Source of the DNA: Hyphomicrobiales bacterium
GTDB taxonomy: Bacteria > Pseudomonadota > Alphaproteobacteria > Rhizobiales > Phreatobacteraceae
Direction of reading: 5' to 3'
Length of the DNA stretch: 64,000 bases
NCBI GenBank assembly: GCA_017304475.1
Contig: JAFKKV010000031.1
Span: 1-64,000 of the forward strand
The notes beneath the pieces are model-generated. The model worked only from the letters and a program-made list of their open reading frames with translations, had not been told where the DNA came from and made no database searches. Made by a program: the position numbers and the translations under genes. The stretch's first letter is position 1. Each line of letters opens with the position of its first letter. Shown here piece by piece: positions 24,384 to 44,951 of this stretch.

Positions 24384-24840
24384 CCGGGCGCGCAGGCCGG
24401 CGTTTAGGGAATCTGCCTTCCTCTGCGAGCAGACGAGATCGCGACCGTCAAACTGTCCCGGTGAAGACGGGCATTTCGCGAAAGGCTGTCGCTCGTCAGA
24501 ACAGGCGACCGGAAAGATCGCTCCGATGTGGTCGGACGAAGTGGGCAGGCGGGCCATCAAAGCCTTGGCGGCCCCGCGGGGAATGGCCTGCGAGGAACCA
24601 GCACCGGCGACGGTCAGCGGTTCCGGGATTGCCGCAGCCGTGCCCGGTGTCGACTATGTCGATATATCGTATCGTAATTCGATACGAAAATAAGCCCATT
24701 ATATCAATTGCCTATGACATAGCGCGCGAAGTGACGCACTCATCGTGTCGCATTCCTATCGCAATATCGGAAAAAATGACCTTGCGTATCGATATGGAGG
24801 TCGCATAGTCTTTTCATGAACCGAGGGGGGAGTGGCCGGG
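24384..24840. promoter_or_regulatory. 457-bp intergenic region carrying the first operator
   Basis: The left 270 bp holds no gene that I can support; short open frames there lack ribosome sites and homology. From about 24655 the base composition turns sharply AT-rich, an obvious promoter island, and carries the operator at 24669-24685. GGGGGGAG at 24824-24831 is the ribosome site of the downstream SDR. Confidence 0.6.
24669..24685 (+). promoter_or_regulatory. Operator 1 (GTATC-N7-GATAC) before the SDR-RidA-ThDP operon
   Basis: GTATCGTAATTCGATAC, a perfect 5-bp inverted repeat, followed by GAAAATA. Related copies occur at 28103, 33365 (inverted) and 33540. Proposed binding site of the IclR-family regulator encoded at 32320-33090. 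Confidence 0.65.
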
Positions 24841-25635
24841 ATGAAGCACGCGAACAAGATAGCCATCGTGACCGGCGCGGCGCAGGGCATCGGCCTGGCC
24901 TGTGCGCAGCGGCTGCATGAGGAGGGGGCGGTCGTCTGGTTGTCGGATCAGAATGCCGAGAAGGTGAGCGCTGCGGCGGCCACGCTCGACCCCAGCGGCA
25001 CCACCGCTTTCGCTTTCACCTGCGACGTCTCGAAGCGCGCCGACGTCGCGGCTCTGGTGGCCAAGGTCGTCGAGCAGTGCGGCCGGCTCGACATCATGGT
25101 CAACAATGCCGGGATCACGGTCTCGAAATCGGTGCTGGAGCTCACCGACGAGGATTATTCCCGCGTCATCGGCGTCAACCTCAACGGGACCTTCTACGGC
25201 ACCCAGGAGGCCGCGCGTGTCATGGTCAAGCAGGGTGGCGGAGCCATCGTCAACATGTCCTCGATGCAGGCCATCCTGACGATTCCCACCAATGTTCCCT
25301 ATGGCATCTCGAAGGCCGGCATCAATCAGATGAGCCGCATCTTCGCTGTCGCACTGGCCAAGGAAAATGTTCGGGTCAACGCCGTCGGCCCGGGCACCAT
25401 TCTCACCGACCTGACGCGCAATGGCGTTCTGTCGAACGAGGAATCCTATCGCCGCATTCTCTCCCGCACACCCATGGGGCGTTGCGGCGAGCCTGAGGAG
25501 GTGGCCAGCGTGGTCTCGTTCCTGGCCAGCGATGACGCCTCCTATGTCACCGGCCAGGTGCTCTACATCGACGGCGGGCGGATGCCGCTGAACTACACCG
25601 TTCCGGTGGATGCGCTGCCGGCGCCGAAATCCTGA
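24841..25635 (+). CDS. SDR family NAD(P)-dependent oxidoreductase
   Basis: Classical short-chain dehydrogenase (264 aa). Cofactor motif TGAAQGIG (residues 11-18), NNAG, catalytic serine in NMSSMQA and the YxxxK pair in PYGISKAG are all present; the C-terminus has YVTGQVLYIDGG. It resembles 3-oxoacyl-ACP reductase/3-hydroxyacyl-CoA dehydrogenase types, so it could perform the hydroxyacyl oxidation of the locus. I use ATG 24841, 9 nt after a strong ribosome site, not the abutting GTG 24832. It opens an operon with ridA and a ThDP enzyme and lies behind operator 1. Confidence 0.88.
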   Translation: MKHANKIAIVTGAAQGIGLACAQRLHEEGAVVWLSDQNAEKVSAAAATLDPSGTTAFAFTCDVSKRADVAALVAKVVEQCGRLDIMVNNAGITVSKSVLELTDEDYSRVIGVNLNGTFYGTQEAARVMVKQGGGAIVNMSSMQAILTIPTNVPYGISKAGINQMSRIFAVALAKENVRVNAVGPGTILTDLTRNGVLSNEESYRRILSRTPMGRCGEPEEVASVVSFLASDDASYVTGQVLYIDGGRMPLNYTVPVDALPAPKS

Positions 25636-25650
25636 GCCGAGGGGAAATCC

Positions 25651-25998
25651 ATGCAGATCGAACGTATCGGCGTCGGCCAGCGGATGAGCAAAGCCGTCTG
25701 CACCGACGGTATGGTCTTCACCTGCGGTGAAGTCGCGACCGACAAGACCAAGGATGCATTTGGCCAGACCCAGGAGATCCTGGACGCCCTGGACGCGAGC
25801 CTCCGTCAGGCCGGGACGCACAAGGAGCGAATTCTCAGCGCCACCGTATGGCTCGCCGACATCAAGGATTTTGCCGAGATGAACCGAGCCTGGGACGCCT
25901 GGGTCCCCCAGGGCCACACCCCCGCGCGGGCGACCGTCGAGGCCAGGCTCGTTTCCGCGACCGCCAAGGTGGAAATCGCGATCATCGCCCTGCGCTGA
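25651..25998 (+). CDS. RidA family protein
   Basis: Reactive intermediate deaminase family (115 aa). RidA proteins hydrolyse enamines/imines released by PLP enzymes, or act as imine hydrolases inside catabolic pathways. Recognisable parts are CGEVATD, TVWLADIKDFAEMN and ARATVEARLVSATAKVEI; the residue after AR that binds the substrate carboxylate is conserved. It is 15 nt after the SDR. Its presence in an amino-compound locus fits an imine intermediate, but it may belong to a non-RidA subfamily. Confidence 0.85.
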   Translation: MQIERIGVGQRMSKAVCTDGMVFTCGEVATDKTKDAFGQTQEILDALDASLRQAGTHKERILSATVWLADIKDFAEMNRAWDAWVPQGHTPARATVEARLVSATAKVEIAIIALR

Positions 25999-26290
25999 AG
26001 CGCCGGGCGCGCACCGAATGGACGGTCTGGCCAATCCTCTTCCCGCGCCCGCGCCGAAACGCCTTGCGCCGTCGGCGCCGGGCGAAGGACGGGGCCGGCC
26101 GGTCGCCTGAAGCGGCGCTCGGGAGCCGCCGCGCCGTCCGGCTCAGGCAAGTGGCCTGCGCCTGCGATGCGGCAGGCCCGAGGCTGCGAACGGCCGCCCG
26201 TCCGACCCGGACGCGCAGCCGAGGCCTTCAATGGCCGAACGATCAGGCGGTGTCGCGCGGTGATGCCGGATGTCCTCGAGGAACCATGAC

Positions 26291-27940
26291 ATGGCAATCA
26301 AATCCGATATCGCGCAGCCGCGGACGATGACCACGGCAGAGGCCGTCGTCGATCAACTCGCGCGCAATGAGGTGTCCACGGTTTTCGCTCTTCCCGGCGT
26401 GCAGAACGACCACCTGTTCGATGCCTTTGCCGGGGCCGCGGACCGGATCAAGCTGATCCATACGCGTCACGAGCAGGGCGCCGCCTATATGGCGCTCGGC
26501 GCGGCGCTCGCGACCGGCAAGCCTTCCGTCTTCACGGTCGTTCCCGGCCCGGGCATCCTCAATGCCTCCGGAGCGCTCTGCACCGCCTATGCCCTGAACG
26601 CTCCGGTGCTGGCCTTGACCGGGCAGATCGCCAATGCGGCCATCGGCAGGGGCCTTGGCCTTCTGCACGAGATTCCGGACCAGCTCGGGGTCCTGCGCTC
26701 GCTGACCAAATGGGCGGACAGGATCCATGCGCCGCACGAGGCGCCGCTGAAGGTCAACGAGGCCTTCGCGCAGATGCGCAGCGATCGGCCACGCCCGGCG
26801 GCCCTCGAATGTGCCATTGATGTCTGGCCCCGGCGCGCACCGGTCGCTTGCCTCGATGGAGCGGTGCCGCGCGCCATTCCGGTCGACGACGACGCGGTCA
26901 GGGCCGCGGCCAGGCTTCTGAGCGCGGCGGCCCGGCCGCTGATCATCGTCGGAGGTGGCGCGCTCGACGCCGGCGAGGCGGTGAGGGAGGTGGCGGAGAT
27001 CCTGCAGGCGCCGGTCTCCAGCCACCGGACCGGCCGGGGTGTCCTGGACAGCCGCCATCCCCTGAGCGTCAACAGCGCCGTCGGCCACAGGCTGTGGCGC
27101 GATGCCGATGTGGTGCTGGCCGTCGGCACGCGATTGCAGCTGCAGCAGCTGCAATGGGGGCTCGACGACAAGATCAAGATCGTGCGCATCGACGCGGATG
27201 CCGACGAGCTGGATCGGGTTCGACCGGCCAGTATCGGCATCGTCGGCGATGCCGGTCCGGTCATGGCCGCCCTGGCGCGCGAACTGGCGCGCCAAGCGGG
27301 TTCGCGGCCCTCCAGGACCGATGAATTGCAGCAGATCAGGGCGCTGTCCGATGCCGACTGGGCCCAATGCCGGCCGCAGATCGATTTCCTGGAGGCGATC
27401 CGATCGGAGCTTCCCGAGGACGGCATCTTCGTCGACGAGCTGACCCAGCTCGGCTACGTCAGCAGGCTGTCATTTCCGATCTACAAGCCGCGCACGTTCA
27501 TCACGCCCGGCTATCAGGGAACGCTGGGCTGGGGACTGGCCACCGCGCTCGGCGTCAAGGCGGCCATGCCGGACAAGGCCGTCGTGGCGGTCAGTGGCGA
27601 CGGCGGCTTCATGTTCAATGTCCAGGAACTCGCGACAGCCGTGCAGCATCGCATTCCCGTCGTCGTCGTGCTGATGAACGATGGTGCATTCGGCAATGTG
27701 ATGCGGACGCAGACCGAGGATTTCGGCAACCGCAGGATCGCCAGCAATCTGACCAATCCCGACTTCGTGAAGCTGGCGGAAAGCTTCGGCGCGCTCGGGC
27801 TGCGGGCGAAAACGCCGGCGGAGCTGAAGCAGGCGCTGCGACAGGCCTTCCAGTCCGGTTTGCCCACCGTCATCGATGTTCCCGTCGGGCCGATGCCGAG
27901 CCCCTGGAACGTGCTGCGTTTCACCCGCTCGCGCCCGTGA
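26291..27940 (+). CDS. Thiamine pyrophosphate-dependent enzyme (acetolactate synthase-like)
   Basis: ThDP enzyme of the acetolactate synthase/2-keto-acid decarboxylase superfamily (549 aa) with all three domains. The catalytic glutamate is in HTRHEQGAAYMA (about residue 55) and the ThDP/Mg motif is GDGGFMFNVQEL ... LMNDGAFGN. Chemistry is likely decarboxylation or carboligation of a 2-oxo acid, or C-C lyase action on a 2-hydroxyacyl-CoA. It is separated from ridA by 292 bp with no visible feature, so it may have its own promoter. Start ATG 26291 has GAGGA upstream; ATG 26270 is possible. Substrate not predictable. Confidence 0.82.
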   Translation: MAIKSDIAQPRTMTTAEAVVDQLARNEVSTVFALPGVQNDHLFDAFAGAADRIKLIHTRHEQGAAYMALGAALATGKPSVFTVVPGPGILNASGALCTAYALNAPVLALTGQIANAAIGRGLGLLHEIPDQLGVLRSLTKWADRIHAPHEAPLKVNEAFAQMRSDRPRPAALECAIDVWPRRAPVACLDGAVPRAIPVDDDAVRAAARLLSAAARPLIIVGGGALDAGEAVREVAEILQAPVSSHRTGRGVLDSRHPLSVNSAVGHRLWRDADVVLAVGTRLQLQQLQWGLDDKIKIVRIDADADELDRVRPASIGIVGDAGPVMAALARELARQAGSRPSRTDELQQIRALSDADWAQCRPQIDFLEAIRSELPEDGIFVDELTQLGYVSRLSFPIYKPRTFITPGYQGTLGWGLATALGVKAAMPDKAVVAVSGDGGFMFNVQELATAVQHRIPVVVVLMNDGAFGNVMRTQTEDFGNRRIASNLTNPDFVKLAESFGALGLRAKTPAELKQALRQAFQSGLPTVIDVPVGPMPSPWNVLRFTRSRP

Positions 27941-27946
27941 CGGCGG

Positions 27947-27967
27947 GCGCCGCGCGGCCCGCGGCGC
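27947..27967 (+). terminator. GC-rich stem-loop after the ThDP enzyme gene
   Basis: GCGCCGCG and CGCGGCGC form a perfect 8-bp stem with a 5-nt loop, 6 nt after the stop codon. No T-run follows. It separates this operon from the AT-rich promoter of the transporter operon. Confidence 0.4.
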
Positions 27968-28102
27968 GGTCGCCTCGGTGAGTGCGACAATCTGCTCCAG
28001 CCTGTCGTCCTGACACGCATCGTGCTCCGCCGGGGCACTCGAAATGGCTTTGGCGGCGGCACATTGCTGCTTCCATGCGCTGTCGTGCCTGTTTCGAGTA
28101 TC

Positions 28103-28119
28103 GTATCGTATATTGATAC
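28103..28119 (+). promoter_or_regulatory. Operator 2 (GTATC-N7-GATAC) before the Aap-type transporter operon
   Basis: GTATCGTATATTGATAC, followed one base later by GAATATTTC. It is 92 nt upstream of the transporter's first gene, in an AT-rich island (28085-28160) within GC-rich DNA. Same motif and orientation as operator 1. Confidence 0.7.
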
Positions 28120-28211
28120 AGAATATTTCATATAGACCTGCTATATTTATTGTGTATCGTTCCCTCTGGGTGACCTGAACGTATTCAAAGACAATCAGAG
28201 GGGCGTCGGGC

Positions 28212-29237
28212 ATGAAACTCAATATCGCTTTGATCTGCGGCTTGTTGTTCGCAAGTTCACTTCAGGAAGCGTCGGCGCAGGGCCCGACACTCGATGCCAT
28301 CAAGCAGCGCGGCAGCCTGCAGTGCAGCACCATCGCCGGCGGCTCGCCCGGCTTTTTCGAGCTCGACGACAAGGGCCGCTGGAACGGCTTCGACTCGGAG
28401 ATTTGCCGCGCGGTCGCGACAGCGATCCTGGGGGCGCCGGACAAGGCGGTCTTCGTGCCGCTGAGCTGGCCGCAGCGTTTCCCGGCGCTTCAGTCCGGCA
28501 GCGTCGACATCGTCGTCAACCACACGAGCTGGACGCTTCAGCGTAACTCCGTTCTCGGCTTCCAGTTCACGCTGCCCTATTTCTTCGGCGGCACCCAGTT
28601 CATGATCAAGAAGCGGGCGGGCGTCACCAGCGCGGCGCAGCTCGACGGCGTCACGGTCTGCGTACCCGCGGGCACGACGACGGAGCGGCTCGCGGCGGAT
28701 TATCTCGCGTCGAAGAAGCTCAATTTCAGGATGCTCCCCTTCGAGAAGACCGAGGATGCCCGCGCGGCCTATCTGGCCGATCGCTGCGACACCATTGCCG
28801 GCTGGGGGCCGACGCTGGCGGTCTTCGGGGTTCGCCGCTCGCGCGACGCCGCGGAGAACATCGTGCTGCCGGAGGTGCTGACCAACGAGCCGGTCTCGGC
28901 GGTCGTTCGCCAGGGCGACGAGAAGTTCCTCATCCTGGTCAACTGGGTGATCGCGGCGCTCATCGAGGCCGAAGAGCTCGGCATCACCAGTGCCAATGTC
29001 GATTCCATGAAAGGCCATGCCGATCCCCGGGTCGCGCGGCTCCTGGGCTCCCAGCCCGGGCTGGGCAAGGGACTGGGCCTGCGCGACAGCTGGGCCTATG
29101 ACGTGATCAAGCAGATCGGCAATTACAGCGAGATCTTCGGACGCAATCTCGGCGCCGGATCGGCCTATAATCTGCCGCGTGGGTTGACCCGGCTCTGGCG
29201 CGATGGCGGCGTGCTCTACGCGCCGGTCTTCGACTGA
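28212..29237 (+). CDS. Amino-acid ABC transporter substrate-binding protein (AapJ-like)
   Basis: Periplasmic binding protein of the general L-amino acid (AapJ) type (341 aa). Signal peptide residues 1-22 end ASAQ; mature segments include RGSLQCSTIAGGSPGF, WNGFDSEICRAVA and DIVVNHTSWTLQRN, all typical of AapJ. AapJ systems take up a broad set of L-amino acids; this copy sits inside a catabolic regulon, so a related nitrogenous acid is plausible. Followed 9 nt later by the first permease gene. Confidence 0.87.
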   Translation: MKLNIALICGLLFASSLQEASAQGPTLDAIKQRGSLQCSTIAGGSPGFFELDDKGRWNGFDSEICRAVATAILGAPDKAVFVPLSWPQRFPALQSGSVDIVVNHTSWTLQRNSVLGFQFTLPYFFGGTQFMIKKRAGVTSAAQLDGVTVCVPAGTTTERLAADYLASKKLNFRMLPFEKTEDARAAYLADRCDTIAGWGPTLAVFGVRRSRDAAENIVLPEVLTNEPVSAVVRQGDEKFLILVNWVIAALIEAEELGITSANVDSMKGHADPRVARLLGSQPGLGKGLGLRDSWAYDVIKQIGNYSEIFGRNLGAGSAYNLPRGLTRLWRDGGVLYAPVFD

Positions 29238-29246
29238 GGCCCGGTC

Positions 29247-30482
29247 ATGCGCACTATCGGCTCGGAGCGCTCCCCCTGGCTTGTGGTACGCGGCCTCTGG
29301 TTTCACCGGCAGCTTCGCAGGTATGTGGTCCAGGGCCTGTTTCTCTGCGCGGTCGTGCTGGCCCTGGCGACCACCATCAGCAATGTGCACGCCAACCTGG
29401 TTCGCCAGGGCATGGCTTATGGCTGGGACTTTCTCTGGCGGAACACAGGGTGGCGGTTGTCCACCTCCATTCTGAGCCAGGACCTGGGTGACCCCTACTG
29501 GTGGACGATATCCATGGGCGTGCTCAACACGCTCGTCCTCGGCCTGCTCTGCATCGTCTTCGCGACCATCGTCGGCTGCTGCATCGGGCTTTTCCGCCTG
29601 TCGTCCAACGCGGCGCTGCGGGCCTTCAGCACCGTCTATGTCGACCTGCTGCGAAACGTGCCCGTGATCATGCAGATCTATTTCTGGTACGAGATCTTCA
29701 AGCACGCTCCGATCGAGCGTAAGGCGCTGGCTTTCGGCGGCGGGTTTTTCCTGAGCAGCCGGGGCTTCTACTTTCCGGCCGTGTGGATCGAGCCCGGCGC
29801 GGGCCTGCTGCTGTTCGGCCTGATGGTGCTGGTCGGCGCCACCGCCTACATGGCGATGAAGGGCCGATCCTTCTATCCCTTGCTGGCGACCCTGGCGGCG
29901 AGCGCGCTCGTCCTGGGGTGGCCCGGGGGAGCACTGCAGGTTCAGTTGCCGGTCTTGCAGGGCTTCAGCTTCCGGGGCGGCAACCGGATGCCGGTCGAGT
30001 TCGTGGTCCTGCTCGTGGCGATCACGCTCTACTCCGCCAGCTATATCGCCGAGATCGTGCGCGGCGGCCTGCTCGCGGTCGACAACGGCCAGATCGAAGC
30101 CGGGCGTGCGCTCGGCCTGAAGGAGCGGAACATCAACTGGCTCATTCGCTTTCCGCTGGCGATGCGAAGCGCCCTGCCGCCATTGAGCAACCAGTATCTC
30201 ATCACCATGAAGGTCACGTCGCTCGGCGCGGCCATCGGCTTCGCGGATCTGTTTTCCGTGACATCCAGCAGCATCAACCACGCCGGCCAGACGATCGAGA
30301 TGCTGGTCGTCATGATGGGCTCCTATCTGCTGATCAACTATGTGCTGGCGAGCGCCATGCAGCGGCTGAATCAGCGCGTCGCGTTGAAGCGCCACGATTC
30401 GTCGGCGCTCCAGTCGCCGATCCGCGCGCGGAGGTCATGGTTCAAGGGCCGCGCCGCCAGGCCGGAGCCCGTCAGCCCATGA
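29247..30482 (+). CDS. Amino-acid ABC transporter permease (AapQ-like)
   Basis: Inner-membrane permease of the polar amino-acid HisM family (411 aa), the long AapQ form with an insertion before the BPD domain. The EAA loop appears as QIEAGRALGLKERNINWLIRFPLAM. Several hydrophobic helices flank it. Its stop overlaps the next permease start by 4 nt (ATGA). Works as heterodimer with the following gene. Confidence 0.87.
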   Translation: MRTIGSERSPWLVVRGLWFHRQLRRYVVQGLFLCAVVLALATTISNVHANLVRQGMAYGWDFLWRNTGWRLSTSILSQDLGDPYWWTISMGVLNTLVLGLLCIVFATIVGCCIGLFRLSSNAALRAFSTVYVDLLRNVPVIMQIYFWYEIFKHAPIERKALAFGGGFFLSSRGFYFPAVWIEPGAGLLLFGLMVLVGATAYMAMKGRSFYPLLATLAASALVLGWPGGALQVQLPVLQGFSFRGGNRMPVEFVVLLVAITLYSASYIAEIVRGGLLAVDNGQIEAGRALGLKERNINWLIRFPLAMRSALPPLSNQYLITMKVTSLGAAIGFADLFSVTSSSINHAGQTIEMLVVMMGSYLLINYVLASAMQRLNQRVALKRHDSSALQSPIRARRSWFKGRAARPEPVSP

Positions 30483-31531
30483 GGTCCCCGGTCACCCTGC
30501 GCGCACAGCTGTTCGGCACCAAGGCCAATATGCTGCTCACCCTGGCGCTGGCGGCCGTCGGGTTGTTCATCCTGGGCTCGGTCGTCCGCTGGGCCTTCAT
30601 CGACAGCCTCTGGAAGGAAACCTACGAGGGGCAATGCGCCACCGTGCCGGGCGCGTGCTGGGCGGTCATCCATGCGCGCTACAGGCTCATTCTCTTCGGG
30701 CTTTATCCCTATGAGGAACACTGGCGTTCCGCCCTGGCTTGCGTCGTGGCCCTGTCGATCGTGGTGCTGAGCTGCATGCCGCGGTTCTGGAGCCTCACCC
30801 GTCTGGTCGCGATCTGGCTGTGCGGGGCCGCCATCTTCGTGCTGCTGATGCGCGGCGGCATCCCGGGCCTGCCCCTGGTGACGACCGACAAGTGGGGCGG
30901 TCTGGCGCTGACCCTCTACGTCTATCTCTCCACCATCATCATCGGCGTTCCCCTGGGCATCATTCTCGCCCTGGGTCGTCAGTCGGACCTGCCGGCGATC
31001 CGCATCGTCGTCACCATGGTGGTCGATTTCGTCCGATCGATCCCGATCCTCGCCGTGGTGTTCTGCGCGGCCCTGTTCGCGCCGTTCATCCTTCCGGGTT
31101 GGCTCAATCCCGATACGCTCTATCGCGTCATCGCCGCCTTCGCCTTCTTCTTCTCCTGCTACTACGCGATGATCGTGACGGGGGGCATCCAGGCGGTGGC
31201 GCCGGGGCAATACGACGCCGCGGCCGCTCTCGGGCTGGGTTATTGGCGCTGTCGCCTGCTGATCGTCATGCCACAGGCGCTGCGCACGGCGCTGCCGGCA
31301 ACGGTCAATCACATGGTGATCACGCTCAAGGAAACCTCCGTGCTGATCATCATCGGAATGTTCGAACTGACGGCCTCCGGCAACGCGGCGCTGCAGAGCG
31401 GTGCATGGCAGCAGTATTACGTTGAAGTCTACATCTTCGTTTCGCTGATCTACTTCACGCTCTCGTTCTCGTTGTCGCGCTACGGCGCGTATCTGGAGCG
31501 GAAGATGCGGGTCGGCTCCATCTCCCGGTGA
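30479..31531 (+). CDS. Amino-acid ABC transporter permease (AapM-like)
   Basis: Second permease subunit (350 aa) of the AapM type with EAA loop QYDAAAALGLGYWRCRLLIVMPQAL, and hydrophobic helices before and after it. The next gene is an SDR, not the expected ATPase AapP, which is absent from the whole locus. The importer therefore needs an ATPase encoded elsewhere. Confidence 0.87.
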   Translation: MRSPVTLRAQLFGTKANMLLTLALAAVGLFILGSVVRWAFIDSLWKETYEGQCATVPGACWAVIHARYRLILFGLYPYEEHWRSALACVVALSIVVLSCMPRFWSLTRLVAIWLCGAAIFVLLMRGGIPGLPLVTTDKWGGLALTLYVYLSTIIIGVPLGIILALGRQSDLPAIRIVVTMVVDFVRSIPILAVVFCAALFAPFILPGWLNPDTLYRVIAAFAFFFSCYYAMIVTGGIQAVAPGQYDAAAALGLGYWRCRLLIVMPQALRTALPATVNHMVITLKETSVLIIIGMFELTASGNAALQSGAWQQYYVEVYIFVSLIYFTLSFSLSRYGAYLERKMRVGSISR

Positions 31532-31560
31532 CGTTCCGGCTCCAGCCTCGAGAGGTTTCC

Positions 31561-32310
31561 ATGTCCGACCAGAAGACCGTCATCGTCACCGCCGCCAGCC
31601 GCGGCATCGGGGCCGCATGCGCGCGAACGCTTGCCGCCAAGGGGTGGCGCGTGGTGCTCATGTCCACCTCCGAAGGCTGCGAAACCCTGGCCGCGGAACT
31701 CGGCGGCTATGCCCTGCGCGGTTCGGTCACCGAACCGGCGGATCTGGCGGCGCTGGTGGCCCTGGCCATGGAGAAGACCGGCCGCATCGACGCTCTCGTC
31801 GCCAATACCGGGCATGGCCCTGGGCTTTCCGAGGTGAAGGCCGGGCCGGCCTATGGTCCCGATTCCGCCGGCCATCTTCTAGATATCGACGATGCCGACT
31901 GGCATGCGGCGCTCGACATGTACGTGATGAATGTCATCCGGCTGGCGCGGCTGATCACGCCGATCATGATGCGGCAGGGGAGCGGCGCGATCGTCGCCAT
32001 CTCGTCGAAGATCGCGGTGGAGCCGAAGCCGACCTATCCGACCAGCGCCTTGCGGCTGGCGTTGCATGCCTTCGCGAAACTCTATGCCGATCGCTACGGC
32101 CGCGCCGGCATCCGCTTCAATTGCGTGCTACCAGGCCTGATCGAAAACTGGCCGGTGCCGGAACAGTCTCTGCAGCAACTGCCGCTTGGCCGTGCCGTGA
32201 AGCTGGACGAGCTCGCCGAAACCGTCGCCTTCCTGGTCTCGGAGGCGGCCGGCGGTGTCACCGGCCAGAGCATCCTGGTCGATGGCGGCTCCGCGCGCGG
32301 CGTGCGCTAG
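31561..32310 (+). CDS. Atypical SDR family protein
   Basis: SDR-fold protein (249 aa). The cofactor motif TAASRGIG and a C-terminal GVTGQSILVDGG are canonical, but the active site is not: NNAG is replaced by NTGHG, the serine-tyrosine spacing is about three residues short, and the YxxxK motif reads YPTSA, so the catalytic lysine is missing. It may use another base or have lost dehydrogenase activity. I use ATG 31561, preceded by GAGAGG, not an overlapping GTG at 31528. Last gene of the operator-2 operon, convergent with iclR. Confidence 0.8.
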   Translation: MSDQKTVIVTAASRGIGAACARTLAAKGWRVVLMSTSEGCETLAAELGGYALRGSVTEPADLAALVALAMEKTGRIDALVANTGHGPGLSEVKAGPAYGPDSAGHLLDIDDADWHAALDMYVMNVIRLARLITPIMMRQGSGAIVAISSKIAVEPKPTYPTSALRLALHAFAKLYADRYGRAGIRFNCVLPGLIENWPVPEQSLQQLPLGRAVKLDELAETVAFLVSEAAGGVTGQSILVDGGSARGVR

Positions 32311-32319
32311 GGCAGGGCG

Positions 32320-33090
32320 CTACGGGGCATCGCCCGCCGTCACCGGATAGCTTCCGCCCAGGACGCGCGTCGCCTGTTCGGCGACCGAAATGGCCAGCGC
32401 TCCGACGCGGTCGAAGTCGGAATGGGGCAAAGTGACGGAATCGCTGGTCAGCACGACCGAGCCGACCGGCGTCGGCCCGCTGCCCCAGACGGGGGCGGCG
32501 ACGCTGCTGATGCGCGCCGTGGAGCCGCGCTCCGAACAGGCATAGAGACGCTGGCGGATGAGTTTGATCTCCTTGCGCAGGTCAGCCGCCGCGTCGCCGG
32601 TCGCCGCGGCCTCCTTGGTCAGCTTTCCGGCGATCTCTTCGATCGAGGCTTCGTCGAGAAACGCAAGGATCGCGCGTCCGGAGGCGGCGACATGCATGGG
32701 AATCCGCTGCCCGGGATCGGAGGAATTGGCCCGCCCCTTCTCGCCATCGATCTTGTCGAGATAGATGATGTCGGGAAAATCCGCCCAGGCGAAATAGGTG
32801 GTTAGTTCGGAATTCTTGGCGGCATAGCGCAGGATCGGATGGACCAGGCGCCGCGCCTCGTTCTGGGCGATGACGCGCGATCCCAGCTCCCATATCCGAA
32901 GCGTCGGCCGGTAGCGGCTCGAATCGGCGGTCTTCTCGATATAGCCCTCTTCCAGCAGGGTCTGGAAAATGCGCTGAACCGCGCTCTTGTTGAGCTTGAT
33001 CGCGCGGGCCAGCTCCGAAATGCCGCGCGGCGTGTCGGAGAGCGCGAGTGATTCCAGGATCCGGAGGCTCTTGCGAAGGGTCGTGCTCAT
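32320..33090 (-). CDS. IclR family transcriptional regulator
   Basis: IclR-type regulator (256 aa). The N-terminal winged HTH (about residues 5-60) contains GISELARAIKLNKSAVQRIFQTL, and the GAF-like effector domain follows from about residue 75 with IYLDKIDG and MHVAASGRAILAF. It is the only regulator inside the 24.8-45 kb locus, so it probably binds the GTATC-N7-GATAC palindromes before all four transcription units, including its own (33365-33381, inverted). ATG 33090 is preferred over a TTG 24 nt upstream. Repressor or activator role and ligand unknown. Confidence 0.88.
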   Translation of the reverse strand: MSTTLRKSLRILESLALSDTPRGISELARAIKLNKSAVQRIFQTLLEEGYIEKTADSSRYRPTLRIWELGSRVIAQNEARRLVHPILRYAAKNSELTTYFAWADFPDIIYLDKIDGEKGRANSSDPGQRIPMHVAASGRAILAFLDEASIEEIAGKLTKEAAATGDAAADLRKEIKLIRQRLYACSERGSTARISSVAAPVWGSGPTPVGSVVLTSDSVTLPHSDFDRVGALAISVAEQATRVLGGSYPVTAGDAP

Positions 33091-33364
33091 TGCTCGTCGA
33101 TCGTCTCGGTCCAAAGGCGGCGGCTGGGAAGGCCACGGAAATCAGTTGAGCGGTAGGTTAGAACATCGTCGGCGTCAATTGACGCATTGCATCGCAATAC
33201 GACACGCGCGCTCGATGTCGCGACGGCATGATCCGCGATTGCGCGTCCGCTCCAGCCATTAGTCGCAATCCAGGCCGGATGTTCAAGCCGACGCGGCGCT
33301 AGCCTCATGGGTGGTCTCCCGCTGGTCGATGCCATGTGAACAGAAGTGGCCGACGAAATATTTC

Positions 33365-33381
33365 GTATCAAAATACGATAC
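33365..33381 (-). promoter_or_regulatory. Operator 3 (GTATC-N7-GATAC), oriented toward iclR
   Basis: On the minus strand GTATCGTATTTTGATAC, directly followed by the perfect palindrome GAAATATTTC (33355-33364). It differs from operator 2 at one position within the 17-mer. It lies about 275 nt upstream of iclR, suggesting autoregulation. Confidence 0.7.
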
Positions 33382-33539
33382 AATCAGCGCGCTCTGGCGG
33401 CAAGCGGGAATAATTCGCCGAATCTGAGCTGCAACGCGCAAAATATTGCTGTGTTGGACGAACTCGAAGCCGTTGTCTCATTGGCGCGCGCTTCCGGTCT
33501 GGCGCTTGACAACCCGTCATTGGCGTATTCAAGTACGGC

Positions 33540-33556
33540 GTATTGTATTTTGATCC
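33540..33556 (+). promoter_or_regulatory. Operator 4 (degenerate copy) before the acyl-CoA dehydrogenase operon
   Basis: GTATTGTATTTTGATCC, 15 of 17 bases identical to operator 3 read on its own strand. It lies 63 nt upstream of the acyl-CoA dehydrogenase start. The two changes fall in the half-sites, so binding may be weaker. Confidence 0.55.
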
Positions 33557-33619
33557 GAAGTACCAAAAAATGCTGATGCGATCCGCAAAGGGCATGCATC
33601 ACGCCGACGGGGGACCCGC

Positions 33620-34807
33620 ATGACGTCCGATACGTTTTCGCTGCCCTCCGGAGCCTGGGAGCTGCCCGACGAACTTGCGTTGCTGCGGGACACGGTGGCC
33701 CAGTTCATGCGCAACGAGGTGCGGCCGGCCGAGGATCGCCAGCCTCATGATTGCTACGAGCTGCCGGAGGCCGACCTCGCCAGCCTGCAGGCCAAGGCCC
33801 GGGCGCTCGGACTGTGGTGCCTGGCGTCGCCGCATCAGCATGGCGGCGGTGGCATCGGGCTCCTGGCCCAGGTCCTGGTCGCGGAGGAAGCCGCCAAGTG
33901 CAAGATGGGCGCCTATGTCCCCGCCTGCGGCGCTTTCGGCATCGATCCACCGAGCGTCATCTGGCTCGGCAATGACGATCAGGTCAAACGATATGGCGTG
34001 GCCGGCATTCAGAACGGCAAGAAGAGCTTTGTCGCCATCTCCGAGGCGGATGGCGGCGCCGACCCGGCACGTTCGATCAAGACGCGCGCCGAGCGGGCCG
34101 GCGACCACTACGTCATCAACGGCACGAAGATGTGGATCACGGCCGCGGGCAAGGCGGACTGGGGGCTGGTCTTCGCGCGCACCGGCGAGGCGGGCGACCG
34201 CGGCGGCATCAGCTGCTTCATCGTCGATCGGGACATGCCCGGCATCAGTATCCGCGAGATCCCGGTGATCCGTTCCTACGCGCCCTTCGAGGTGCATTTC
34301 GAGAATGTCAAAGTCCCCGTCGAAAATCGTCTCGGCGCGGAAGGCGAGGGGTTCGCGGTCTGTCAGAAATGGCTGGTGCACGCCCGCGTTCCCTATGCCG
34401 CCGGGGTCATCGGCATCGCGCAGGAGGCCCTCGGCATGGCGACCGCCTGGGTCCGGCAGCGCAAGGCCTTCAAGTCCGCGCTGGCGGACAAGCAGGCGAT
34501 CCAGTGGATGATCGCCGATTCGGAAATGGAGCTGCGCGCGGCGCGGCTTTTGACCTATCAGGCGGCATGGCGGGCGGACCTTGGGCACGACATCAAGATC
34601 GATGCCTCGATCGCCAAGGTGACGGCCACCGAGACGGCGGGGCGCGTGATCGACCGCTGCGTCCAGATGTTCGGCGCGCTCGGCGTCGCCAAGGAACTGC
34701 CGATCGAGCGGTGGTACCGCGAATTGCGCATCAAACGTATCGGCGAGGGGCCGTCCGAGGTCCAGCGCATGGTGGTGGCGCGCCACCTCATCAACGGCGG
34801 CAGGTGA
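33620..34807 (+). CDS. Acyl-CoA dehydrogenase
   Basis: FAD-dependent acyl-CoA dehydrogenase (395 aa, standard length) introducing a 2,3-double bond into a CoA thioester. Seen parts are AISEADGGAD, the FAD-binding GTKMWITAAGKADW, and the C-terminal RWYRELRIKRIGEGPSEVQ where the glutamate is the usual catalytic base position. First gene of a ten-gene operon whose spacing is mostly below 20 nt or overlapping. Substrate chain unknown; electrons would go to ETF. Confidence 0.9.
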   Translation: MTSDTFSLPSGAWELPDELALLRDTVAQFMRNEVRPAEDRQPHDCYELPEADLASLQAKARALGLWCLASPHQHGGGGIGLLAQVLVAEEAAKCKMGAYVPACGAFGIDPPSVIWLGNDDQVKRYGVAGIQNGKKSFVAISEADGGADPARSIKTRAERAGDHYVINGTKMWITAAGKADWGLVFARTGEAGDRGGISCFIVDRDMPGISIREIPVIRSYAPFEVHFENVKVPVENRLGAEGEGFAVCQKWLVHARVPYAAGVIGIAQEALGMATAWVRQRKAFKSALADKQAIQWMIADSEMELRAARLLTYQAAWRADLGHDIKIDASIAKVTATETAGRVIDRCVQMFGALGVAKELPIERWYRELRIKRIGEGPSEVQRMVVARHLINGGR

Positions 34808-34814
34808 GGCGGCG

Positions 34815-35588
34815 ATGGCTATCGACTTCTCGACCGAAGACGGCGTCGCCGTCATCACCATCAACCGCCCCGAACGGCGCAACGCCCTCGATGCCGAGCA
34901 CTACGACGCCTTGTCCAAGGCCTGGCAGCGCGTGCGCGACGACGACGCCATTCGCGTCGCGGTGATCACCGGCGCGGGCGACAAGTCGTTCTGCGCCGGA
35001 GCGGACATCAAGTCCTTCGTCGGGCGTGATGTCGAACTGTCCGAACTCTGGCTGACCCAGAAGGGCCAGCTGCTGAACCGGGGGCTCGAGATCTGGAAGC
35101 CGGTCATCGCCGCGGTGAACGGCGCCTGTGTCGGCGGCGGCATGACCTTGCTCCTGGCGACCGACATCCGCGTCGCCGTGGCAGGGGCCGTCTTCAGCGT
35201 CTCCGAGGTCAAGCGCGGGATCATCGCCGCCAATGGCGGGACGCAGCGGATCATGCAGCAACTTCCCTATGCCGTCGCGATGGAGATGCTTCTGACCGGG
35301 GAAGCCATCGACGCCGAAACGGCTCTGCGCTGGGGCCTGATCAACAAGGTGGTCGAGCCGGCGGACCTGCTCGACGCAGCCCTCGATTATGCGCGCCGGA
35401 TCGCCGCCAACGCGCCGCTGGCATTGCAGGCGGCGAAGGAGCTGGCGGTCCGATCCCGCGACATGGATCTGGCGACTGGCTTGCGCATGGAGCAACTGGT
35501 CAACCGCATCCTGCACCATTCCGAAGACACCAAGGCCGCCAAGGCGGCCTTCGCCGAGAAACGCCAGCCCGCATTCAAGGGACGGTGA
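34815..35588 (+). CDS. Enoyl-CoA hydratase/isomerase family protein
   Basis: Crotonase-fold enzyme (257 aa). The oxyanion-hole regions are SFCAGADIKSF and ACVGGGMTLLLATD, with VSEVKRGIIAANGGTQR carrying the second catalytic region; the glutamate normally expected in the GGG-side motif is not obvious, while the EVKRG glutamate is. It should hydrate the enoyl-CoA made by the preceding dehydrogenase. It starts 7 nt after it. Confidence 0.87.
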   Translation: MAIDFSTEDGVAVITINRPERRNALDAEHYDALSKAWQRVRDDDAIRVAVITGAGDKSFCAGADIKSFVGRDVELSELWLTQKGQLLNRGLEIWKPVIAAVNGACVGGGMTLLLATDIRVAVAGAVFSVSEVKRGIIAANGGTQRIMQQLPYAVAMEMLLTGEAIDAETALRWGLINKVVEPADLLDAALDYARRIAANAPLALQAAKELAVRSRDMDLATGLRMEQLVNRILHHSEDTKAAKAAFAEKRQPAFKGR

Positions 35589-35593
35589 CGGCC

Positions 35594-36814
35594 ATGGCGA
35601 ACGCAGCCTCCGGGACGACCGACCAGGCCCTGCCGCTCGCGGGCCTGCGCGTTCTCGATCTCACGCAGATCTATAACGGCCCCTATGCGACCTTCCTGAT
35701 GGCCATGGCGGGCGCCGAGGTCATCAAGGTCGAGCCGCCGGGCGGCGAATTCCTCCGCAGGCGCGACGCCCGCAGCGGGGCCGGCGTGCCCTTCGCGATG
35801 CTGAACGCCAACAAGCGTTCCGTCTCGCTCAATCTGAAGTCGCCGCGCGGCCGCGACATGCTGCTCGACCTGGTTCGCCAGGCGGATGTCCTGGCGGAGA
35901 ATTTCGCCCCTGGCGTGATGGACCGCCTCGGCCTCGGCTATGATGCGCTCCGGGCCGTCAATCCGCGCATCATCTACGCCGCCAGCAGCGGCTATGGCGA
36001 TGCCGGCCCCTATCGCGACTATCCGGCCATGGACCTCACCGTGCAGGCCATGTCGGGGGTCATGAGCATTACCGGCTTCTCTCATAACGCTCCGGTCAAG
36101 TCGGGCGCCGCCCTGTGCGACTTCTTCGGCGGCGTGCATCTCTACGGTGCGATCACGACGGCGCTCTTCGGTCGCGAGCGCAGCGGCAAGGGGTGCCGGA
36201 TCGAGGTCGCCATGCTCGAGGCGGTCTATCCCTCGCTCGCCTCGAGCATCGGCATGACCTATGGCGAGCGCGGCGACATTCCGCTGCGCACGGGCAACCG
36301 GCACGGCGGCCTGTCGCTCTGTCCCTACAATGTTTATCCGGCAAGCGACGGCTTCGTCGCCATCATCTGCAACAACGACAAGCACTGGCTCTGCCTGGTC
36401 GACGCGATGGAACGGCCCGACCTGAAGGCCGATCCGCGGATGGCGACGATGCGCGACCGCGTCGCTCATATGGAGCTGATCGACGGCATCATCTCGGAAT
36501 GGACCTTGCCGCAGTCGCGCGACGACCTGTTCGGCAGGCTCGCCGCCTTTCGCGTGCCGTCGGCGCCGGTGCGCGACCTGCCCGAGGTCATCGCCGATCC
36601 GCACATGCATGAGCGCGGCATGCTGCTGGAGGTCGACCATCCGCAATACGGCCCGATCACCGTTTGCCGCAGCCCGATCAACTATTCCGGCGTGGCGCAG
36701 CCGGACTATCGGGTCAGCCCGGCCTATGCGGCCGACAACGAGGCGGTCTACGGGGGCATGCTGGGCATCGCCGCCGCCGATCTCGCGGCCCTGCGCGCCG
36801 AGGGAGTGGTCTGA
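35594..36814 (+). CDS. Class III CoA transferase (CaiB/BaiF family)
   Basis: Family III CoA transferase (406 aa) that moves CoA between carboxylic acids, commonly from succinyl-CoA. The N-terminus LPLAGLRVLDLTQIYNGP and the catalytic aspartate at about D147 in YPAMDLTVQAMSG are visible, as are RTGNRHGGL and NNDKHW. It would activate the free acid of this pathway. GTG 35585 overlapping the previous stop is a possible start, but ATG 35594 has better ribosome-site spacing. Confidence 0.9.
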   Translation: MANAASGTTDQALPLAGLRVLDLTQIYNGPYATFLMAMAGAEVIKVEPPGGEFLRRRDARSGAGVPFAMLNANKRSVSLNLKSPRGRDMLLDLVRQADVLAENFAPGVMDRLGLGYDALRAVNPRIIYAASSGYGDAGPYRDYPAMDLTVQAMSGVMSITGFSHNAPVKSGAALCDFFGGVHLYGAITTALFGRERSGKGCRIEVAMLEAVYPSLASSIGMTYGERGDIPLRTGNRHGGLSLCPYNVYPASDGFVAIICNNDKHWLCLVDAMERPDLKADPRMATMRDRVAHMELIDGIISEWTLPQSRDDLFGRLAAFRVPSAPVRDLPEVIADPHMHERGMLLEVDHPQYGPITVCRSPINYSGVAQPDYRVSPAYAADNEAVYGGMLGIAAADLAALRAEGVV

Positions 36815-37944
36815 TGCGAGGGCGCGCCGTCATCGCGGGCATCGGCCACACCACTTATGGCAAGCATCCCGGCCGGGATCGGGTTTCGCTCATCGTCGAG
36901 GCGAGCCGCAAGGCGCTGGCCGATGCCGGCATCGCCAAGGACATGGTCGATGGCGTGCTGGTGAAGATGGCCAATGCCGAGCCCTCGATCCTCTATGGGC
37001 AGAAGGTCGCCGAGGCGCTGGGCATGCGGCCGAAAATCGGCTGCGCCCTGGATCAGGGCGGAGCCGCCAATATCGCGCTGATCAGCTACGCGGCGATGGC
37101 GATCGAGGCGGGCCTGATGGACATCGCCATCATCTGCTACGGCGATACGCCGCGCACCGGCAGCCGCAAGGTCTATGGCCGGCCGCGCGGCGACGACGCC
37201 GTCTATGGCTGGTATTCGACCGCCGCCGGATATGCCCTTCTCCACCAGCGCTACAGGCAGCAATACGCCATTCCCGACGCGCATTTCGGCGCCGTCGCCG
37301 TCACCTGCCGGGATCATGGCGCACGCAATCCCAACGCCCACCTCCAGAAGGCGATAACCCTCGACGAATACATGGCGTCGCCCTTCGTGGTCGAGCCGTT
37401 GCGGCGGGACGATTGCTGCCTGCTGTCCGATGGGGCGGCGGCGGTCATCGTGATGTCCGCCAGGCGCGCGGCCGAGCTGCGGATCGCCAAGGCCGTCCCG
37501 ATCCTGGGATTCGGCCAGGCGCAGGAATCCTGGGATGTGCATCTTCGTCCGGATCTGACCCGCACGATATCGGGCGTCGCCGGCGAGACGGCGCTCAAGA
37601 TGGCCGGCCTCGAGCGGCGCGATATCGCGGTGGCCCAGCTCTACGACTGCTTCACCGTGACGCCGTTGATCACGCTCGAGGACTACGGCTTCTGCAAGCC
37701 GGGCCAGGCGGCGCGTTTCGCTGCGGAAGGCGGCATCGCGCTCGACGGCCGGTTGCCGCTGAACACCAGCGGCGGCCTGCTGTCGGAAAGCGGCACGCCC
37801 GGGCTTCAGCTGGTGATCGAGGGTGTCCGCCAGATGCGCGGCGACGCCAACCTTCAGGTTCGCGGCGATGGAGCCTGCATCGTCAGCAATCAGGGCGGCA
37901 CCATGCACACGCATGCGACCTTGGTCCTGGGGAGAGCGGCATGA
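36814..37944 (+). CDS. Thiolase-fold protein lacking the nucleophilic cysteine (probable Ltp2-like retro-aldolase)
   Basis: SCP-x/Ltp2-type thiolase-fold protein (376 aa). At the position of the thiolase nucleophile the sequence reads DQGGAANIALISYAA, with Gly instead of Cys, and the C-terminal motif is NTSGGLLSESGTPGLQ, without the usual GHP or second active cysteine. Such proteins paired with a DUF35 partner act in steroid side-chain loss as retro-aldolases on 3-hydroxyacyl-CoA. The next gene is exactly that partner, overlapping by 4 nt. True thiolytic activity is unlikely. Confidence 0.82.
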   Translation: MRGRAVIAGIGHTTYGKHPGRDRVSLIVEASRKALADAGIAKDMVDGVLVKMANAEPSILYGQKVAEALGMRPKIGCALDQGGAANIALISYAAMAIEAGLMDIAIICYGDTPRTGSRKVYGRPRGDDAVYGWYSTAAGYALLHQRYRQQYAIPDAHFGAVAVTCRDHGARNPNAHLQKAITLDEYMASPFVVEPLRRDDCCLLSDGAAAVIVMSARRAAELRIAKAVPILGFGQAQESWDVHLRPDLTRTISGVAGETALKMAGLERRDIAVAQLYDCFTVTPLITLEDYGFCKPGQAARFAAEGGIALDGRLPLNTSGGLLSESGTPGLQLVIEGVRQMRGDANLQVRGDGACIVSNQGGTMHTHATLVLGRAA

Positions 37945-38348
37945 ACTTTCCCCAGCCCGACGTGACACCCCTGAACAAGCCGCATTGGGATGGCCTGAAG
38001 CAGGGCCGGTTGATGTTCCAGCAGTGCCGCAGATGCGGACATGCATGGCTGCCGGCGCGCGAGGCCTGCCCGGAATGCCTCGCGCCGGAACCGGAATGGC
38101 GAGAGGCCGCGGGCGAGGGCACGGTGGTGAGCTGGGTCGTCTACCACGTCGCCTATGACGAGGCGTTCAACGGCCGCCTGCCCTACGACGTCACCTGCGT
38201 CGAACTCGACGAGGGCCCACGCATCCTCACCAATATCGTCGACAGCGACGCGGGCGCCAGGCTTCGCATCGGTCGCCGCGTCAGCCTCTGCATCGAACAT
38301 GAAGGTGACCTGGCACTCGCGCGCTTCAAGCTGGCCGAGCCCGGTTGA
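37941..38348 (+). CDS. Zn-ribbon OB-fold (DUF35) protein
   Basis: Small DUF35 protein (135 aa). A rubredoxin-like zinc ribbon with C29, C32, C43 and C46 (CRRCGHAW...CPEC) is followed by an OB-fold (GTVVSWVVYHVAY, VTCVELDEGPRILTNIV). DUF35 proteins bind thiolase-like or hydratase-like partners and contribute acyl-CoA binding. The 4-nt overlap with the thiolase-fold gene implies a stoichiometric complex. Confidence 0.9.
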   Translation: MNFPQPDVTPLNKPHWDGLKQGRLMFQQCRRCGHAWLPAREACPECLAPEPEWREAAGEGTVVSWVVYHVAYDEAFNGRLPYDVTCVELDEGPRILTNIVDSDAGARLRIGRRVSLCIEHEGDLALARFKLAEPG

Positions 38349-38388
38349 CCCGAGATCCACGACATCGCTCCAGGAGCATCGAAACACC

Positions 38389-39312
38389 GTGTCCAAGTCA
38401 GCGCCTCAGTTCATCGTCCTGAACGGCAACCTGATCCCCTATGAGGAGGCGACGGTCCATGTGATGTCGCCCGCGCTCAAATATGGCCTGTCGGTGTTCG
38501 AGGGCTTGCGGGCCTATTGGAGCGACGCGCACCAGGATCTCTACGTCTTCCGCCTCCAGGACCATACGGACCGGCTGCTGCAGTCGATGAAGCTTTTGCG
38601 CTTCAAGCACGATTTCGACGGTGCCGAGATCAACAGGATGACGCTTGATCTCCTGCGCCGGAACGACGTCAGGGCGGCGGCGCATATCCGCACGACGGCC
38701 TATCTCGATGGCCAGGGGGAGCAGCAGGTCAAGGGGCCGGTGAGCTACGCGATCTCGGCGCTCGAAAAGCCGCGTACGGCCAAGATCGACGCCGGCATTC
38801 GCTGTCAGGTCAGTTCCTGGATGCGCATGGCGGACAATGTCATGCCGCCGCGCATCAAATGCGGCGGCAATTATGTCAACGGGCGCCTTGCGCGCTATCA
38901 GGCGATCCAGGACGGCTATGACGAGGCCATTTTGCTCAACACGCTCGGCAAGGTCGCCGAGGGGCCGGGAACCTGCATCTTCTTCGTGCGCAAGGGCGAG
39001 CTCGTCACACCGGACATGGCCAGCGGCATCCTGGAAAGCCTGACGCGCGATACGGTCCTGAGGCTTGCGCGCGAACGTGGAATTGCCGTCTCGGAACGCA
39101 CCGTCGACCGCACCGAGCTCTATGCCGCCGACGAGGTGTTCATGGTGGGCTCGGCGGCCGAGCTGGTTCCCGTCGTCGATATCGATGGCATCGCCATCGG
39201 ACCCGGCCTGCGCGGGCCGCTGACGACCCAGTTGCAACAGGCCTATTTCGAAACGGTCACCGGCGCGATAAAGGCCCCCGCGGGCTGGCTTACCTCGGTC
39301 CACAAGAGCTGA
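38389..39312 (+). CDS. Class IV aminotransferase (branched-chain aminotransferase-like)
   Basis: PLP fold-type IV transaminase (307 aa). SPALKYGLSVFEGLRAYW is the typical IlvE N-terminal motif, the PLP lysine is in PRIKCGGNYVNGRLA, and EGPGTCIFFVRKG and ITRDTV-like SLTRDTVLRLARE follow. Start codon is GTG 38389, with AGGAG about 12 nt upstream, a rather long spacing. In this operon it would transaminate the pathway's amino acid rather than serve biosynthesis. It could also be a D-amino-acid or omega-type member. Confidence 0.83.
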   Translation: MSKSAPQFIVLNGNLIPYEEATVHVMSPALKYGLSVFEGLRAYWSDAHQDLYVFRLQDHTDRLLQSMKLLRFKHDFDGAEINRMTLDLLRRNDVRAAAHIRTTAYLDGQGEQQVKGPVSYAISALEKPRTAKIDAGIRCQVSSWMRMADNVMPPRIKCGGNYVNGRLARYQAIQDGYDEAILLNTLGKVAEGPGTCIFFVRKGELVTPDMASGILESLTRDTVLRLARERGIAVSERTVDRTELYAADEVFMVGSAAELVPVVDIDGIAIGPGLRGPLTTQLQQAYFETVTGAIKAPAGWLTSVHKS

Positions 39313-39314
39313 CG

Positions 39315-40400: not shown

Positions 40401-40416
40401 GTTTCAGGAGCGATCC

Positions 40417-44081: not shown

Positions 44082-44123
44082 AAGCCCGTTCGTCAAAGTG
44101 GCTTCTGGGAGGAAAGAACAATC

Positions 44124-44951
44124 ATGTCAGCTTGCATCATCACCATCGCGATGACCGGCTCCGTGCCGAGAAAGAAGGACACGCCGGCCGTTCCCGTCAC
44201 GGTCGCCGAACAGATCGAATCGACCCACGAGGCCTTCGAGGCCGGGGCCTCGCTCGCCCATATCCATGTCCGGGACGATCAGGAGAACTCATCATCCGAT
44301 CCCGAACGTTTCGCCGCCGTCCAGGACGGCATCCGCAAGCACTGTCCCGGCATGATCATCCAGTTTTCCACCGGCGCGCGCGGGCGACAGCTCAGCGAGC
44401 GCGGCGGGATGCTTCATCTGCGCCCCGACATGGCGTCGCTGGCGACCGGATCGGTCAATTTCCCGACCTTCGTCAACGAGAATCCGCCCGATTTCATCAG
44501 GGGTCTCGCCCAGACCATGCTCGACCACGACGTCAAGCCTGAATGCGAGATCTTCGATCTGGCCATGCTCTACAATGCCGCGGATCTCGTCCGGGAAGGG
44601 TTGCTGAAGTCACCGCCGCACGTGCAATTCGTGCTCGGCGTCAAGAACGCGCTTCCCGCGCGCCGCGAGATCCTCGAATTCGAAGTGGCCCAGCTGAAGT
44701 CGATCCTTCCGGATGCGACCTGGACGGCGGCGGGCCTTGGCCGTCATCAGTTCGAGGTCAATCACTGGGCGCTCGAAATGGGCGGCCATTGCCGGACCGG
44801 CCTCGAGGACAACATTCGCTTCGACCAGTCCCGACTGGCCAAAAGCAATGCTGAACTGGTCAGGCGATTGGCCGAACTCTGCGGCGAATACGGGCGCCGA
44901 CCCGCGACCGCCAGCGAAGCCCGGTCCATCCTGGGCCTGCGCGAAGCCTGA
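44124..44951 (+). CDS. BKACE family beta-keto acid cleavage enzyme (DUF849)
   Basis: Zinc TIM-barrel enzyme (275 aa) that condenses a beta-keto acid with acetyl-CoA and splits it into acetoacetate and a new CoA ester; the prototype acts on 3-keto-5-aminohexanoate. Zinc ligands H46 and H48 lie in AHIHVRDD and the third, E228, in GLEDN. Start ATG 44124 has GGGAGGAAAG upstream. Last gene of the operon, followed by a strong stem-loop. It gives the pathway a CoA-transfer cleavage step; its beta-keto acid is unknown. Confidence 0.87.
   Translation: MSACIITIAMTGSVPRKKDTPAVPVTVAEQIESTHEAFEAGASLAHIHVRDDQENSSSDPERFAAVQDGIRKHCPGMIIQFSTGARGRQLSERGGMLHLRPDMASLATGSVNFPTFVNENPPDFIRGLAQTMLDHDVKPECEIFDLAMLYNAADLVREGLLKSPPHVQFVLGVKNALPARREILEFEVAQLKSILPDATWTAAGLGRHQFEVNHWALEMGGHCRTGLEDNIRFDQSRLAKSNAELVRRLAELCGEYGRRPATASEARSILGLREA

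Follow-up and report, generated by a model that had tools for sequence, protein, structure and literature searches.

The question raised by this locus is how its catabolic genes are controlled. The locus lies in a stretch of 64,000 nucleotides from a Hyphomicrobiales bacterium of the Phreatobacteraceae (GenBank assembly GCA_017304475.1, contig JAFKKV010000031.1, positions 1 to 64,000 of the forward strand), which is referred to here as the window, and it includes a gene for an IclR-family regulator, iclR. A first-pass annotation of the window described a 17 base pair (bp) palindrome, GTATC-N7-GATAC, in front of each of four transcription units and named the IclR protein (32320–33090) as the natural candidate to bind it. 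The four palindromes are probably, at a rough probability of 0.82, operators of the locus's own IclR-family regulator. We favor this reading because the motif is rare and clustered, because it is kept together with the regulator across genera, because second sites occur at a tandem spacing of 20 bp, and because the motif correlates with the recognition helix of the regulator.

Exact copies of GTATC-N7-GATAC are found at 24669, at 28103 and, on the minus strand, at 33365, and a copy with two mismatches in its arms is found at 33540, all as annotated (operators 1–4, Table 1). The interior GTANTTN is common to the copies at 24669, 33365 (minus) and 33540; that at 28103 has GTATATT instead. Motifs said to follow two of the copies are present as well, GAATATTTC after 28103, one base further on, and GAAATATTTC after 33365 on the minus strand. 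The sites do lie in AT-rich islands, with a local G+C of 45–55% (150-bp windows) vs 67% for the window. All four are situated within 9 kb, each upstream of iclR or of adjacent catabolic genes. The claim that each copy is oriented toward its gene holds for the asymmetric interior only; the arms are symmetric and so carry no direction. The window shows no other copy of the exact pattern, as claimed, but it does display a weak fifth candidate on the minus strand at 33184–33200. With the form GTATY-N7-RATAC and at most one mismatch, only five places in the 64 kb match, the four operators and this weak site 5′ of iclR. An overlapping register of the weak site, 33189–33205, scores 15.7 bits and is the next-ranked in the window with a weight matrix made from the four sites. 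The weak site is conserved as GTATTGCAATGCAATGC in the closest ortholog.

The three exact copies in the window compare with 0.008–0.016 expected under two composition models. Many copies at unrelated genes, which would speak against a regulon, were not found. The whole assembly (8.38 Mb) has five exact copies vs one copy of the reversed pattern; three of the five are those within 9 kb at the locus, and the other two, on contigs C8 and C37, are each directly upstream of another IclR-family gene. The 12 genomes of the genus show 21 exact sites vs 6 reversed-control sites. Outside this locus and its counterpart in genome G011, an IclR gene lies within approximately 1.5 kb on either side of the exact site in 7 of 16 cases; in one of the seven the site is situated at the 3′ end of the IclR gene. 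In a sample of the order (121 genomes) no wide enrichment is seen: the per-genome motif counts, among the matches listed, resemble the reversed control by eye, and 2 of 30 loci drawn from these matches contain an iclR gene. Genome-wide, the relaxed form GTATY-N7-RATAC has 10 matches and the reversed control 5. We therefore make no claim for further regulon members elsewhere in the genome; one such extra hit, C1:99384, lies 5′ of a gene that by eye is amidohydrolase-like.

The copy at 33540 requires separate consideration. At two or fewer mismatches the window has 11 matches vs 10.75 expected from shuffles, i.e. there is no enrichment, and mismatch count was rejected as a measure of significance for the site set. 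Because the count equals expectation, the 33540 copy is non-significant by this measure and needs other support. This comes from its conservation, with 17/17 bases kept in the closest orthologous locus (L006 of G011, the same place by coordinates, IclR 94% identical), and from a weight-matrix score of 24.0 bits, which is circular since the matrix was trained on the four sites including 33540 (with a threshold of 14 bits, chance alone gives 0.13 sites per 20 kb).

Operator 2 also keeps 17/17 bases in L006, inside a conserved block of about 70 bp. Operator 3 keeps 10/10 arm bases and 4/7 interior bases, and the DNA surrounding it has diverged. In the stretches aligned, intergenic DNA around the kept sites is largely diverged between the two loci. 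When 385 genomes from the class were searched for orthologs, 11 gave a match with an E value no higher than 1e-25, among them that of the window itself. Gene content is largely common to the loci of G480, G420, and G352, and partly to those of G494; the IclR identities are 83% (G480), 71% (G420), 38–39% (G352), and about 35–41% (G494), and further genomes among the matches also have IclRs at 40% or less. In G480 an exact site precedes the solute-binding-protein gene and a one-mismatch site precedes iclR; one further exact match inside the acyl-CoA (acyl-coenzyme A) dehydrogenase coding region is taken as chance. A near-unchanged form of the 33540 copy, GTATTGTAATTTGATCC, is also found upstream of the solute-binding-protein gene in G480 (locus L103). 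G420 has a one-mismatch site upstream of the same transporter gene, and near iclR only a site with two mismatches. Two G494 IclRs have one-mismatch sites upstream, and one G494 locus has in addition an exact site, 66 bp 5′ of a gene which we take by eye to be dienelactone-hydrolase-like. Thus the expectation that orthologous loci keeping iclR also keep the sites was borne out in G011, G480, G420, and for the two G494 IclRs, and failed in G352. Exact or one-mismatch sites accompany the regulator in other families at IclR identities as low as 35–36%, G352 being the exception.

Locus L106 of G494 (IclR 35–36%, helix NKSNVQRI) has sites at 10214 and 13901, found between iclR and a divergent ABC substrate-binding gene and 5′ of a dienelactone-hydrolase-like gene (names by eye). 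This is the same operator type with a different pathway.

The locus regulator belongs to the IclR family by both of its domains, the N-terminal winged helix HTH_IclR (42.0 bits, cut-off 22) and the C-terminal effector domain IclR_C (72.5 bits, cut-off 24). The best-scoring named subfamily is TIGR02431 (PcaR/PcaU/PobR) at 97.1 bits, which does not reach the curated cut-off of 284.75. Its recognition helix carries a Gln-Arg pair, found in two of the 38 IclR matches of this genome, namely the locus IclR and a paralog on contig C8. The relation of this pair to the motif was followed in two gene sets. The first consists of the 155 distinct IclRs among 178 loci fetched by protein or family (L004, L005, and L050 were fetched by motif but are also in the family list). 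A site within one mismatch is present for 20/25 regulators with a.KS..QR helix vs 2/130 others (reversed control, 2/155). The second set adds a phylum-wide sample and L084, giving 207 distinct IclR genes, with an upstream span of 400 bp. Exact GTATY-N7-RATAC is found upstream of 30/49 Gln32-Arg33 regulators vs 1/158 without the pair; the reversed control gives 0/207 exact and 5/207 at one mismatch. L084 was fetched by its motif, and without it the Gln-Arg count is 29/48. The Fisher value of the association is 4e-22, with relatedness ignored. Helices of the form KS[AN]xQR account for most of the sites (26/31 with an exact site, vs 4/18 for other Gln-Arg helices), and outside the phylum-wide sample 25/29 Gln-Arg regulators have one.

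In a tree of the effector domains of 107 regulators, the Gln-Arg members fall into separated groups, the deep branches being weak, which suggests that the pairing arose more than once in the IclR family. A different motif, TGTTC-N7-GAACA (at most one mismatch), is found with 6/30 Arg-32 regulators, all with the helix TRAGARR, and with 0/49 of the Gln-Arg regulators. For His/Phe/Tyr-32 regulators, GTTTC-N7-GAAAC was found in 2/74, too few for a claim. We consider the odds evenly balanced that the K-S-[A/N]-x-Gln-Arg helix specifies GTATY-N7-RATAC operators in the IclR family, with some Arg-Arg (TRAGARR) regulators going together with TGTTC-N7-GAACA. This would offer a simple protein-to-DNA rule for part of a large family. 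If the rule is true, genome sequence alone could suffice to predict where such regulators bind and which genes belong to their regulons.

Secondary sites of at least 8 bits occur at 7/40 positions exactly 20 bp away vs 5/1400 at other offsets of 10–45 bp; the 20 sites used, from the window and its relatives, include orthologous pairs and so are not all independent. Within the window, operator 4 only has such a partner at 20 bp. Tandem IclR sites are reported with centers 18–22 bp apart, mainly 19–21 (Suvorova and Gelfand, 2021, PMC8222616), and both the 20-bp excess and the partner of operator 4 fall in this range.

In the proposed mechanism, one recognition helix (N-K-S-A-V-Q-R-I) of an IclR dimer would read each arm, GTATC or in weaker forms GTATT, in the major groove, the starts of the two arms being 12 bp apart. 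Where a promoter has a weaker partner site at a distance of 20 bp, a second dimer would be able to sit on the same face of the DNA. IclR would have four targets, namely iclR itself, the transporter unit, the SDR/thiamine-diphosphate unit, and the long acyl-CoA unit, and would most likely repress these until a pathway compound (an intermediate) binds the C-terminal domain. In this model we infer that the protein binds the sites, that it represses and does not activate, that it has such an effector, and where the promoters lie.

The palindromes could have arisen by chance in AT-rich intergenic islands, and at two or fewer mismatches the window indeed matches no more often than shuffles, but the excess of exact copies in the window and genome-wide, together with site conservation in orthologs, contradicts this, and its probability is negligible. 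A palindrome alone names no protein, and one locus, L005, has the motif beside a different recognition helix, so that a different kind of regulator or a structural DNA element might be involved, with the proximity of iclR a coincidence. This is very improbable: both other exact genomic copies lie upstream of iclR genes, and the split by recognition helix and the 20-bp tandem spacing also argue against it. The paralogous C8 IclR might mainly or also bind the sites, in which case the regulon would be shared or cross-regulated. Its recognition helix, NKSAAQRI, is very similar, and the site upstream of its own gene, GTATCGATAATCGATAC, has the same arms as the locus sites. However, this site and that of a relative in genome G008, GTATCGATATTCGATAC, differ from GTATCGTA inside the locus sites, the interior varies among further relatives of the paralog, and locus-type sites accompany the locus IclR in other families. 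A role for the paralog at these sites is thus unlikely.

The locus IclR could also bind these sites and activate, like PcaU or PobR, a possibility that we hold doubtful. PcaR/PcaU/PobR is the best named subfamily, though far below the cut-off. Most IclR site centers are reported at −20 to −80 from the start codon, a majority and not a rule (PMC8222616); operator 4 at −72 is within this range, and the others, at −101, −164, and −283, are outside it and could suit upstream activation. Against activation, a possible promoter read by hand, with TTGACA at 33506 (conserved in L006) and a 17-bp spacer, would have operator 4 begin just past the −10 element, over the start site; a promoter scan did not call it.

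Several observations weigh against operators of a repressing locus IclR as the explanation. Operators 1–3 lie further upstream than is usual. Since a consensus sigma-70 scan of the region called no promoter, the hand-read one at operator 4 included, the case for repression comes from that one promoter. Operator 1 is degraded to GTATTGAATATAGATAT, 11/17, in L006, and in G352 (IclR helix NKSNVQRV), where iclR and much of the locus are kept, no site is found upstream of iclR. The helix correlation has exceptions in both directions. Of the Gln-Arg regulators 19/49 have no exact site and 14 have none even at one mismatch, the 71% ortholog L089 among these. In the phylum-wide sample an exact site is found for 5/20 Gln-Arg regulators and a site within one mismatch for 8/20. 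An exact motif is found at L005 (1501–1517; G000:C37:88450) directly 5′ of an IclR gene with the helix DKNTTRRL, the sole exact exception to the helix rule. A phylogeny-corrected independent-pairs test of helix vs motif was not significant, with few independent changes. With these points included, control by the locus IclR remains the reading that we prefer.

The C8 IclR and its G008 relative (L054 4033, 8969, 9148; L109 5407, 9021, 9199) have GTATC-N7-GATAC at the regulator, and the same loci show further GTATY-type sites about 3.6–5 kb away. This regulator may thus have a small local regulon of its own. The source assembly, at 8.4 Mb, has 38 IclR-type matches and a listed contamination of 5.44%. 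Of the other 11 genus members, ten are 4.1–5.0 Mb with 5–18 IclR-type matches and one is 7.4 Mb with 26.

Table 1. Predicted sites, genes, and assumed transcription units of the locus (window coordinates).
Feature	Position	Strand	Description
Operator 1	24669–24685	+	GTATCGTAATTCGATAC; exact GTATC-N7-GATAC; center 164 bp 5′ of SDR gene ATG (24841)
Operator 2	28103–28119	+	GTATCGTATATTGATAC; exact match; center 101 bp 5′ of solute-binding-protein gene ATG (28212)
Operator 3	33365–33381	−	GTATCGTATTTTGATAC (minus strand); exact match; center 283 bp upstream of iclR
Operator 4	33540–33556	+	GTATTGTATTTTGATCC; two arm mismatches; center 72 bp 5′ of acyl-CoA dehydrogenase ATG (33620)
Weak candidate fifth site	33184–33200	−	GTATTGCGATGCAATGC; one mismatch to GTATT-N7-AATAC; center 102 bp upstream of iclR
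Weak partner site	33560–33576	+	GTACCAAAAAATGCTGA; exactly 20 bp from operator 4; weight-matrix score 9.0
Possible acyl-CoA dehydrogenase promoter	33506–33534	+	TTGACA (33506–33511), 17 bp, TCAAGT (33529–33534); hand-read
iclR	32320–33090	−	IclR-family regulator; recognition helix NKSAVQRI; HTH_IclR and IclR_C above Pfam cut-offs
Unit 1 (assumed)	24841–27940	+	SDR dehydrogenase, Rid-family protein, thiamine-diphosphate enzyme
Unit 2 (assumed)	28212–32310	+	Family-3 solute-binding protein, two ABC permeases, SDR dehydrogenase; ATPase gene not among them
Unit 4 (assumed)	33620–44951	+	Acyl-CoA dehydrogenase, enoyl-CoA hydratase, class III CoA-transferase, thiolase, ChsH2-like OB protein
Unit 4 (assumed), continued	33620–44951	+	Class IV aminotransferase, Ldh_2 dehydrogenase, hydantoinase A and B, BKACE

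The gene content of the locus (transporter, CoA enzymes, aminotransferase, hydantoinase A/B, BKACE) suggests that it may take up and break down an amino- or lactam-type compound. The solute-binding protein and two permeases (28212–31531) form an ABC importer of the polar amino-acid type. A scan of the genes from 24841 to 44951 gave no ATPase gene for this importer. In G494, one locus displays an ATPase-like frame (by eye) beside its transporter. Positions 24770–24815, 5′ of the SDR gene, form a block that is near-identical in the ortholog, the preceding DNA being different. The block contains an 11-codon frame ATG...TAG at 24776–24808 (MTLRIDMEVA; MILRIDMEVA in the ortholog) and is a possible leader peptide or element of the 5′ untranslated region.

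The set of palindromes provides an operator model that can be put to the test, for a catabolic locus that is uncharacterised and is found in several families of one class. A literature search on IclR regulators with GTATC-, GATAC- or GTATT-type sites, or on Phreatobacter regulons, yielded nothing relevant among the papers listed. According to PMC8222616 (section 4), dimers or tetramers are the DNA-binding forms of IclR regulators, and the usual targets are the regulator's own gene plus one or two neighboring operons. Operators of group 1 are given there as GKTYCRYW3-4RYGRAMC, with the subgroup GTT-11-AAC. The locus sites are like these in forming a 17-bp palindrome with 5-bp arms and a 7-bp center, and the locus resembles group 1 systems in its tandem sites about 20 bp apart and in a regulator proposed to control itself and adjacent operons.

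The PcaR/PcaU/PobR group (TIGR02431) is the best named subfamily for the locus IclR, yet the score is far below the curated cut-off; the operators tabulated in PMC8222616 are TTTGTTCGATWATCGMACAMA for PcaU and TTGTCCGATSATCGGACAR for PobR. The GenR operator, ATTCC-N7(5)-GGAAT (Table 1 of the same paper), shares with the locus sites 5-bp arms around a 7-bp spacer and an IclR-family regulator of a catabolic locus, but differs in arm sequence and pathway. The same paper correlates Gln32 with A/T at alignment positions 9/23 and Lys28 with G/C at 7/25. Among 23 sites compared here, T at position 2 in 23/23 and G at position 18 in 18/23 fit these correlations, though position 0, on the other side, shows no clear preference; the mapping of the published numbering onto this motif is our own. 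Unlike the group 1 consensus, which has T/A at the symmetric positions 3/15, the locus operator has A/T (GTATC...GATAC). All 23/23 sites carry A at position 3 together with T at 15, the sites having been picked by a pattern with these bases at no more than one mismatch. The four subgroups for which section 12 of the paper prints a consensus all lack GTA...TAC. Because T/A is absent at 3/15, the operator is a variant rather than a member of the published group 1 motif, as compared with the consensuses printed in the main text.

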